Notes under the pieces: model-generated
The model's input: only the letters and a program-made list of their open reading frames with translations
Databases searched by the model: none
Told to the model about the DNA's origin: nothing
Assembly (NCBI GenBank): GCA_013138865.1
Contig: WTBY01000059.1
Span: 1 to 49,099, forward strand
DNA: 49,099 nucleotides
Source: Helicobacteraceae bacterium
GTDB taxonomy: Bacteria > Campylobacterota > Campylobacteria > Campylobacterales > Sulfurimonadaceae
Reading direction: 5' to 3'
Shown: positions 4,523 to 47,433 of the stretch, in pieces
Numbering within the stretch: the stretch's first letter is position 1
How the letters are laid out: each line of letters begins with the position of its first letter
Made by a program: the position numbers and the translations under genes

Positions 4523-5722
4523 TTATTTTAGAGCTTCGAACTTAGCCATTTCGTCAAGTTTTTCCCAAGGGTAATCACTTTGACCAACTTGTCCACGAGC
4601 TGCAACATCTGCATAAAGGAAAGTCTCTTCACTTGGTTTATCAAGTGCAAATTTCTTCGTGATCCAGTTTGGAGTTAAAGAAAAATTATCTAACACAAAT
4701 GTTGATAATTTATCATCATCTAAACCATCGATCACAGTTCCACTAGTATCAACTGCAACTGAAGTTGGACGAGCAACACCGATCGCATAAGAGATCTGAA
4801 CAATACACTTCTTAGAAAGTCCAGCGGCAACTATATGTTTAGCGATCCAACGAGCGGCGTAAAGACCAGATCTATCAACTTTAGTGTAATCTTTAGAACT
4901 TTGAGCTCCACCACCAATTGGTGCATATCCACCGAAACTATCAACTATAAGTTTACGACCAGTTAATCCACTATCGTGTAGAGGCGAGTGAGAAACATAT
5001 TTACCAGTAGGATTAATATGAATAATACAATCATTTGGATCAAATAGGTTTTTAGGAAGACCTGCATCAATAATTAATTCCATTATTAACTCACGTACTT
5101 CTTCTATACTCATGCTTGAAACACATGGAGCAGAAACCACTACCGTATGAATTTTTTGAGGTTCACAGTTTTCAAAGTTAGCTTTAACATCATAATCCAT
5201 AGTAACTTGTGTTTTAATATCAACACCTAGTTTATGTGGATGAGCAAGAGCGTAGTGGTAAACTTTTTCCATTAGCATTCTCGAGTATGTGATCGCACTT
5301 GGCATAAAGTTATTAGTTTCACAATCAGCGTAACCAAACATAATACCTTGATCACCAGCACCAGTCTCACCATCTTGCTTGTCAACACCTTGGTTGATGT
5401 CAGGACTTTGACGATTTAGAAGAACTTGAACTTCAACATCTTCAGGATATAAACACTCTTCGTGAGTGAAACTTTCATTACCGTAGTAACCGATCTTCTT
5501 GAGAGCATCTACTGCTATCTTTTTATACTCTTCTACACTAACTTGTGTATTAGAAGTAACTTCACCACCGATCACAACATGCTTACCAGCAACAAAAACT
5601 TCACTAGCAACTCTACTTTGAGAATCACCAATAATTAATTTGTCAACTATGCTATCAGCTATGATATCAGCACATTTGTCAGGATGACCAGGACTTACAA
5701 CTTCACTTGTAAATAGGTACAT
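4523..5722 (-). CDS. metK: S-adenosylmethionine synthase
   Basis: Makes SAM from methionine and ATP in the cytoplasm. The protein is 399 aa when started at MYLFTSEVVSPGHPDK (ATG at 5722), which is preceded by AAAGG. The frame stays open for 53 more codons to 5881, but that part has no MetK homology and would run into the structured RNA, so the shorter start is chosen. Motifs: GHPDKCADIIADSIVD (methionine/ATP site), GAGDQGIMFGYA, GGGAQSSKD and DxSGLYAARW. A TATACT -10 candidate lies at 5776-5781 on the reverse strand, giving a leader of about 47 nt with no room for a known SAM riboswitch. The gene is divergent from purD. Confidence 0.96.
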   Translation of the reverse strand: MYLFTSEVVSPGHPDKCADIIADSIVDKLIIGDSQSRVASEVFVAGKHVVIGGEVTSNTQVSVEEYKKIAVDALKKIGYYGNESFTHEECLYPEDVEVQVLLNRQSPDINQGVDKQDGETGAGDQGIMFGYADCETNNFMPSAITYSRMLMEKVYHYALAHPHKLGVDIKTQVTMDYDVKANFENCEPQKIHTVVVSAPCVSSMSIEEVRELIMELIIDAGLPKNLFDPNDCIIHINPTGKYVSHSPLHDSGLTGRKLIVDSFGGYAPIGGGAQSSKDYTKVDRSGLYAARWIAKHIVAAGLSKKCIVQISYAIGVARPTSVAVDTSGTVIDGLDDDKLSTFVLDNFSLTPNWITKKFALDKPSEETFLYADVAARGQVGQSDYPWEKLDEMAKFEALK

Positions 5723-5862
5723 ATAACAACCTTTGTTTAGACTACTTATGTAGCCATTATTTAATTTTGTATGAGAGTATATCGAAAGAAGTTTACTAAA
5801 TAATAAAGTAAGGGTTGTAGGGGTTTCTTTAAGGTTAAAGAGGTTACAATTTTGAATATTCT

Positions 5863-6040
5863 GAGTGACGCGAGTAATCACATGTTAAGGGGTTCTACAT
5901 TTTCATTCGGTGAACTTCGTAGTGTATCATGTGTGCAGTGTTCTTGTCTGAAGCGCTGAGTTTAGAGAACACTCCTAATTGACATTCGCTTCACCACTAT
6001 TCGGCTTTTAGAACCAAAGCTGAATGTGAAACGCTCACTC
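5863..6040 (+). ncRNA. ssrS: candidate 6S RNA (rod-like structured RNA, about 178 nt)
   Basis: No gene lies between metK and purD, but seven perfect complementary segments nest without crossing: 5863-5868/6035-6040, 5870-5872/6032-6034, 5879-5883/6024-6028, 5891-5897/6009-6015 (GGTTCTA/TAGAACC), 5920-5924/5995-5999, 5929-5932/5982-5985 and 5937-5944/5966-5973 (AGTGTTCT/AGAACACT). The result is one long hairpin with a large internal bubble (22 nt on the 5' side) and a loop of 21 nt, which is the shape and length of 6S RNA. An alternative hairpin (5999-6008 with 6016-6025, one G-U) would use the 3' bubble strand, as in the refolding that releases RNA polymerase. The plus strand is favoured by TACAAT at 5845-5850, by U-rich sequence after 6040, and by co-orientation with purD. 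TTTATA at 6043-6048 could be a reverse-strand -10, so strand is not certain. The function is inferred from fold and context; no conserved 6S sequence was recognised. Confidence 0.6.
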
Positions 6041-6105
6041 GGTTTATATCTTACATTTAATTCAAAGTACCTCGGCATATTTTTCAAAAACTTTAATCTT
6101 AACAA

Positions 6106-6114
6106 TGTTATAAT
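6106..6114 (+). promoter_or_regulatory. extended -10 promoter of purD
   Basis: TG at 6106-6107 and TATAAT at 6109-6114, predicting a start near 6121. It lies downstream of the structured RNA, so that RNA would be a separate transcript rather than a purD leader. Confidence 0.55.
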
Positions 6115-6149
6115 GAAAGTCTTATTTATTTAATAATTTTGGAGAATAT

Positions 6150-7415
6150 ATGAACGTAATGATTTTAGGCTCAGGTGGGCGTGAATACTCAATGGGACTT
6201 GCTATAAAAAAAGATGAACAAGTAGAAAAATTATATTTTTGTCCGGGTAATGGAGCTACTGAAAACTTAGGTGAAAATGTAGCTATTAAAGATTATAATG
6301 AACTAGCTGAGTTTGCAAAATTAAACAATATTGAATTTACAATCGTAGGACCAGAAGGACCTCTAGTTGATGGTGTTGTAGATATTTTTAAATCACATAA
6401 CCTTACTATTTTTGGACCAACTGCAGCAGCTGCTCGTCTTGAAGGTTCAAAAGTTTATATGAAAAACTTTTTAGCAAAGTACAATATTCCAACAGCACGC
6501 TACATAGAGACTAATTCGATCGAAGATGCTTTCAAGTTTATAGAAACGCTACCAGTTCCAGTGGTTGTAAAAGCTGATGGGCTTTGTGCTGGTAAAGGTG
6601 TGATCATTGCTATGTCACATGAAGAAGCTAAAAAAGCAACAAGCGAGATGTTAAGTGGGGCAAGTTTTGGAGATGCTGGAAAAAATGTAATTATCGAAGA
6701 GTTTTTAGACGGTTATGAACTCTCAATGTTTGCTATTTGTGATGGTGATGATTATGTACTTCTTCAAGCCGCTCAAGATCACAAGCGTCTACTAGACGGT
6801 GACGAGGGACCAAACACTGGTGGAATGGGCGCTTACGCTCCAACACCTTTAGTAAATGAAGAGATCTACCAAAAAGTAAAAGATCGTGTAATAGTTCCTA
6901 CATTAGATGGTATGAAAAAAGAGGGTGCACCATTTGAGGGCGTACTTTTTATAGGAATTATGGTAGTAAATGGAGAACCAATTACATTAGAATTCAATGT
7001 ACGTTTTGGCGATCCAGAGTGTGAAATTTTAATGCCACTCCTAAAAAGCTCAGCATTCGATCTTTTTCATAAAGCTGCAACAAATAGACTTAATGAACTT
7101 AAAGTTGAGTTTTTAGATGAATACGCAGTAGGTGTTGTTATGGCTTCGGCTGACTACCCTTATAAAAGTTCAACACCTGCACAGATCATAGTAGATGAGA
7201 TTTTACATGATGAGCTTAAAGAAAATGCGCATATCTCTTACGCTGGAGTAACTTTAGAAGATGAAAAACTTTTAGCAACTGGTGGACGCGTTTTAGTATG
7301 TGTTGCAAAAGGATCTACGATCAAAGAAGCTCGCGATCGTGCTTACTTACTTTGTGGTCAAGTTCACTTTGCAGGTAAGAAAATAAGAAATGATATAGCG
7401 TATCAGGCACTTTAA
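6150..7415 (+). CDS. purD: phosphoribosylamine-glycine ligase (GAR synthetase)
   Basis: Second step of de novo purine synthesis: joins glycine to phosphoribosylamine using ATP. Length 421 aa, typical. The N-terminal domain starts with the phosphate-binding [11 protein letters not shown], the ATP-grasp region shows [13 protein letters not shown] and [15 protein letters not shown], the [17 protein letters not shown] motif is present, and [10 protein letters not shown] carries the metal ligands. GGAGA at 6141-6145 supports the ATG. The stop overlaps the next start by one base (TAATG), beginning a tightly packed forward operon (purD, RDD protein, lptD, phosphoribosyltransferase, pnp). Contains CGATCG at 6517 and 7334. 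Confidence 0.96.
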
Positions 7416-46926: not shown

Positions 46927-47002
46927 GTCTTGTTAGCTCAGCTGGTAGAGCATCTCACTTTTAATGAGGATGCCGATGGTTCGAATCCATCACAGGACAC
47001 CA
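46927..47002 (+). tRNA. tRNA-Lys (TTT)
   Basis: 76 nt, with CCA encoded. Acceptor GTCTTGT/ACAGGAC with one G-U, D-arm GCTC...GAGC, anticodon loop CTTTTAA, T-arm GATGG-TTCGAAT-CCATC, discriminator A. First gene of the cluster. Confidence 0.97.
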
Positions 47003-47017
47003 TTTAACATTTTATAC

Positions 47018-47094
47018 GCGGTGGTAGTTCAGTTGGTTAGAATATCTGCCTGTCACGCAGAGGGTCGCGAGTTCGAATCTCGTCCACCGCGCCA
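47018..47094 (+). tRNA. tRNA-Asp (GTC)
   Basis: 77 nt. Acceptor GCGGTGG/CCACCGC, anticodon stem TCTGC/GCAGA with loop CTGTCAC, T-arm GCGAG-TTCGAAT-CTCGT, discriminator G, CCA. It follows tRNA-Lys by 15 bases and is surely in the same transcript. Confidence 0.97.
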
Positions 47095-47115
47095 CTTTTT
47101 TTGTTTATTTGCACT

Positions 47116-47149
47116 GAAGCTTTTAGCTCACGTACTTGTTGTACGCTTC
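47116..47149 (+). other. hairpin in the tRNA-Asp to tRNA-Val spacer
   Basis: CGTAC (47131-47135), loop TTGTT, GTACG (47141-47145), inside a wider GAAGC (47116-47120) and GCTTC (47145-47149) pairing that shares one base. There is no U-run, so it may be a processing signal or a repeat-type hairpin rather than a terminator. The rest of the 140-bp spacer is AT-rich and may hold a promoter for tRNA-Val. Confidence 0.35.
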
Positions 47150-47234
47150 GCCAAAACCTTAAGCACAACTAAATCAAAAAATCACTAACTATACATAAAT
47201 AATCAAAAAGTATTTTTAGTAAATAAAATGTAAT

Positions 47235-47310
47235 GGGCGCTTAGCTCAGTTGGTAGAGCGCTACCCTTACAAGGTAGATGTCATTGGTTCGAGTCCAATA
47301 GTGCCCACCA
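47235..47310 (+). tRNA. tRNA-Val (TAC)
   Basis: 76 nt. Acceptor GGGCGCT/AGTGCCC with one G-U, anticodon stem CTACC/GGTAG with loop CTTACAA, T-arm ATTGG-TTCGAGT-CCAAT, discriminator A, CCA. Confidence 0.97.
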
Positions 47311-47357
47311 TTACAAATAAATAAGTTTACACTTATTCTTCCCACTCACATTATATT

Positions 47358-47433
47358 GACCCTTTCGTCTAGTGGCCAAGGACAATATCATTTCATGGTA
47401 TGAACAGAGGTTCAAATCCTTTAGGGGTCGCCA
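47358..47433 (+). tRNA. tRNA-Glu (TTC)
   Basis: 76 nt. Acceptor GACCCTT/AGGGGTC with one G-U, anticodon stem ATATC/GGTAT (one G-U) with loop ATTTCAT, T-arm AGAGG-TTCAAAT-CCTTT, discriminator G, CCA. Last of the cluster. No clear terminator follows in the 93 bp before the next gene. Confidence 0.96.

Follow-up and report, generated by a model that had tools for sequence, protein, structure and literature searches.

What does the 427-nt gap between the divergent genes metK and purD of a Helicobacteraceae bacterium (GCA_013138865.1, a Sulfurimonadaceae-like genome of the Campylobacterales) encode? In this work, the gap was analysed within a window of 49,099 nt, that is, the whole stretch of contig WTBY01000059.1 under study. 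It holds one Rfam match above the family cut-off, to RF01069, the purD RNA motif, which is typed as cis-regulatory (Cis-reg). A preliminary description had instead read nested complementary segments at 5863–6040 as a probable 6S RNA. We conclude that the gap very probably carries the 6S RNA gene of this bacterium, in single copy, the product of which would bind RNA polymerase by analogy with other 6S RNAs. This reading offers the best explanation of the covariation among relatives, of the RF01069 match taken together with the literature, and of the alignment of orthologues to RF00013, the 6S family.

The family and its position are already known, and its biology has already been described. Upstream of purD, Campylobacter jejuni makes a 6S RNA of 185 nt with a closing stem and a central bubble, the top-transcribed non-coding RNA after rRNA and tRNA, and this RNA serves as template for a 13-nt antisense product RNA (PMC3847290). 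A shorter version of it was formerly proposed as a purine riboswitch, and in Helicobacter pylori, for which a product RNA was reported as well, the 6S RNA also lies upstream of purD (PMC3847290). Additional support for a Campylobacterota 6S RNA upstream of purD was provided elsewhere (PMC8322730). The window RNA is tied to that of C. jejuni because position and strand are shared, RF01069 matches, and RF00013, though below its cut-off, spans orthologues over their whole length.

Covariation of the metK–purD RNA

The complementary segments nest inward from 5861/6042 on the forward strand, to which all RNA coordinates refer. By direct reading, the outer set comprises 5861–5868/6035–6042, 5870–5872/6032–6034, 5878–5883/6024–6029 and 5891–5896/6010–6015, and the inner set 5909–5914/5990–5995, 5924–5929/5980–5985 (one mismatch), 5937–5944/5966–5973 and 5948–5951/5962–5965. 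The segments were thus found where the preliminary description had placed them; its location was right, but the RNA is slightly longer than it had stated, with a closing stem (and conserved core) spanning 5861–6042 and a predicted transcript of about 5857–6045. The folding energy of the segment does not stand out by itself (z = −1.63; an equally good fold is reached by 13 of 200 shuffles), and a single sequence is no proof of structure. Relatives were collected for comparison because folding energy alone is weak evidence. The covariation alignment consisted of 38 full-length relatives and was controlled by 500 shuffles and by slid pairing partners; extra relatives came from purD-containing contigs named Sulfurimonas, Sulfuricurvum, Helicobacteraceae or Campylobacterales.

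The nested fold was paired in 92.6% of the cells of the 38 sequences, compared with 76.9 ± 0.6% for the shuffles and 36–45% for the slid versions. Double-sided changes occurred in 33 of the 43 pairs, a count reached by none of the 500 shuffles, and all helices contributed to this signal, including the closing stem. The compensatory changes that the preliminary description had proposed to look for are therefore strong. The closing stem (5861–5872 with 6032–6042) was paired in 97.9% of cells, with double changes in six of ten pairs and the other four invariant; its 5′ strand falls outside RF01069. For the inner closing helix (5878–5883 with 6024–6029) the values were 82.6% and four of five pairs. 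The helix beside the central bubble, formed by GGUUCU (5891–5896) and AGAACC (6010–6015), was paired in 94.3% of cells, and its pair 5894/6012 is UA in 29 sequences and CG in nine. The two sides of the bubble, at 5897–5908 (ACAUUUUCAUUC) and 5996–6009, are unpaired in the consensus structure, the former agreeing in position with the 5′ bubble of RF00013. A hairpin in the 5′ side of the bubble (CUAC/GUAG) is conserved in relatives, yet without covariation. The first helix of the apical arm (5909–5914 with 5990–5995) was paired in 89.4% of cells, all five tested pairs showing double changes. Further along the arm, which ends in the terminal loop (5924–5985), the consensus counterparts of the helices 5924/5985, 5937/5973 and 5948/5965 reached 92.5, 90.4 and 98.0%, respectively. 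As read from the aligned sequences, a rod-like fold of closing stem, central bubble and apical arm with terminal loop is present and covaries over its full length.

Rfam models and distribution of the RNA

RF01069 covers only the 3′ two-thirds of the RNA (5919–6044, forward strand; 49.1 bits, cut-off 41). When cmscan was applied directly to short loci, which is more sensitive than a genome-wide search, RF00013 aligned over its positions 1–187 with orthologues, at 45.2 bits (E 7.1e-06; cut-off 46.4) for locus L132, and at 33.9, 29.4 and 27.8 bits for L010, L012 and L018. In the L010 alignment, the RF00013 helix beside the central bubble lands on GGUCC/GGGCC, the counterpart of 5891–5896/6010–6015. 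Run genome by genome on the class, RF00013 gave one weak match only, since the filters of a genome-wide run are stricter and lose it. A full-length covariance model, R1, in which the inner closing helix is poorly modelled (its register is one gap column off), matched 5861–6042 at 143.3 bits, the window sequence having belonged to its training set. RF01069 models the Campylobacterota 6S RNA in truncated form, without the 5′ third, since a 6S RNA is what C. jejuni makes ahead of purD, RF00013 spans orthologues end to end, and the missing closing stem covaries. The preliminary description had held that a closer fit to some other RNA family would speak against it; to the letter RF01069 is such a fit, but as a truncated 6S model it leaves the identity standing.

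RF01069 was detected in 54 of the 60 near genomes, and once each in 114 of the 121 genomes of the class sample. R1 recovered the RNA from each of the seven complete class genomes lacking an RF01069 match (E 7e-15 to 5e-5). In G092 its match (65187–65385) overlaps an independent weak RF00013 match (65181–65392), and in G050 the RNA that it detected lies directly upstream of purD. Neither RF01069 nor R1 matched five drafts of the near sample (G004, G020, G034, G037 and G043). The absence of purD, too, from the G004 assembly suggests a gap there. The RNA is a single conserved copy across the group.

The covariation confirms from sequence that the Rfam purD cis-regulator family is the Campylobacterota 6S RNA, and the missing 5′ third is supplied. 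Pipelines using RF01069 and RF00013 would annotate this genome as lacking a 6S RNA and as having a purD leader instead. The database label is thus the sole point to act on: RF01069 should be extended in the 5′ direction and reclassified from cis-regulator to 6S RNA.

Linkage to purD and competing explanations

Among 126 loci, purD lies downstream on the same strand in 123, usually 16–300 nt away, a count biased by the fact that some loci were fetched via purD. In G051 about 194 kb separate the two; in G038 they belong to different contigs, and the RNA is followed by a gene for fructose-1,6-bisphosphatase; and in two Sulfurimonas genomes (loci L076 and L108) an opposite-strand gene stands between them. 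Because the RNA is parted from purD in these four, it is no obligate purD leader. The purine-gene neighbourhood to which the preliminary description had pointed exists here, as purD follows the RNA, but is not fixed. The intervening gene encodes about 550–620 aa (L076 675–2315 and L108 575–2446, both on the reverse strand), and the L108 copy, which was scanned, had no Pfam match. At another locus, L031, about 300 nt between the 6S RNA and purD (2204–2500) hold more long complementary stretches, such as CCTATAGAACTCACAAAAGTT ... AACTTTTGTGAATCCTCTAG, and L034 has a stretch resembling this region.

Several observations weigh against a 6S RNA. The RF00013 search of the region, proposed in the preliminary description, gave no match in the window, nor did RF00013 match elsewhere in the organism's own genome, and it stayed below its cut-off in every class genome tested. 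The minimum-energy fold computed for the window RNA by itself is multi-branched (−52.7 kcal/mol) and not a rod; when the closing stem and helices 5909/5995 and 5937/5973 are enforced, the 6S rod comes to −52.0 kcal/mol, 0.7 above the minimum, which predicts a near balance of the two forms in the free RNA. Moreover, the conservation of purD beside the RNA in most relatives would also suit a cis-regulator. A riboswitch-like leader of purD, as the Rfam name and type imply, would account for this linkage and for a score above the family cut-off, but a leader should always precede purD, which is not the case in the four genomes named above. The closed rod, the −10 box of its own, the end-to-end alignment of orthologues with the 6S model, and the abundant 185-nt RNA with its product RNA in C. 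jejuni (PMC3847290) likewise argue against it, and we consider it very improbable. That the pairing arose by chance, with no RNA gene at all, would agree with the unexceptional folding energy, but covariation far beyond both controls, together with an Rfam score exceeding the cut-off, makes its probability negligible.

The 6S RNA assignment is compatible with a further proposal, that read-through from the RNA also supplies purD mRNA, the activity of the 6S promoter thereby setting part of purD expression. The gap to purD is just 16–30 nt in some relatives, a distance that leaves no obvious room for a promoter of its own, and an intrinsic terminator was not found in 5700–6250. On the other hand, the window has a TATAAT at 6109–6114, 36 nt before purD, a possible separate −10 box seen by direct reading and inconsistently present in relatives, and in several genomes the RNA stands apart from purD. 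We regard read-through as possible, if on balance unlikely. More doubtful still is a largely conserved 6S–purD unit in the Campylobacterota, with purD fed by read-through from the 6S promoter and 6S abundance thereby coupled to the supply of purine nucleotides, the initiating nucleotides for product RNA.

Locus, proposed mechanism and comparison with known 6S RNAs

The 6S RNA gene (5857–6045, forward strand, ends predicted) is flanked by metK (S-adenosylmethionine synthetase; 4523–5722, reverse strand; PF00438, PF02772 and PF02773) and purD (phosphoribosylamine-glycine ligase; 6150–7415, forward strand; PF01071, PF02844 and PF02843). Reading the metK frame from a GTG gives 452 aa and an overlap with the RNA, but this is an artefact, as metK starts at 5722. 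Elsewhere in the window, two small adjoining genes on the forward strand (1126–1661) are probably a type II toxin-antitoxin pair: the second (1380–1661) has a Pfam match to ParE toxins (PF05016, E 5e-9), and the first would be an antitoxin without a Pfam match. A cluster of four tRNA genes lies at 46927–47430 on the same strand.

Upstream of the RNA, a −10 box TACAAT at 5845–5850 (GTTACAAT) fits the gnTAnaAT consensus of C. jejuni and H. pylori (PMC3847290). The same column reads exactly TATAAT in 73 of 83 representative relatives. The distance from the box to the closing stem is mostly 8–12 nt, and the RNA measures 165–195 nt between closing strands. From these features we infer that the 6S RNA is transcribed from its own promoter in this bacterium.

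We hypothesize that this sigma-70 promoter drives transcription of an RNA whose rod of closing stem, central bubble and apical arm would imitate an open promoter. By analogy, the 6S RNA would bind the housekeeping RNA polymerase holoenzyme and keep it off DNA promoters. The 5′ side of the bubble would then serve the polymerase as template for a short product RNA, expected to be about 5′-AUGUAGAACCCC; the predicted template is 5891–5896 together with 5897–5900, and the antisense product would start near 5900 and read AUGUAGAACC. The product RNA may displace AGAACC from the helix beside the bubble, whereupon a hairpin at 5999–6025 could form and the polymerase be released. This hairpin (AUUCGGCUUU/AAAGCUGAAU), which the preliminary description had noted as a competing structure, is present with 10 pairs and competes with the 5891/6010 and 5878/6024 helices; its mean pairing probability in the free RNA is predicted to be 0.86. 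When 5887–5900 was blocked in silico, the inner part of the hairpin formed within 5999–6025 and the closing stem was kept. Refolding on product RNA synthesis is plausible from this modelling; because covariation of the hairpin across the order did not exceed that of the shuffles, the step is an inferred one, as by analogy are polymerase binding and product RNA synthesis in this organism.

In gamma-proteobacterial 6S RNA, opening of the helix beside the bubble allows a 3′-bubble hairpin that aids release (PMC8876501). The window RNA behaves likewise in silico, whereas its hairpin, in contrast to the E. coli type, has no covariation support across the order. The architecture of RF00013 (6S/SsrS) is alike, and that model spans several orthologues end to end just under its cut-off, but the window sequence is too diverged to be matched by it. 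RF01069 does match 5919–6044 above its cut-off; it differs in lacking the 5′ third of the RNA, which leaves the 3′ closing strand unpaired, and in its cis-regulatory type. Compared with the Campylobacterota 6S RNAs of C. jejuni and H. pylori (PMC3847290), the RNA described here has metK as the neighbour on its other side, where the upstream gene differs among species. Like them it precedes purD on the same strand, and it has in common with them a predicted length of about 185 nt, the closing stem, the bubble, the apical arm and the sigma-70 box.
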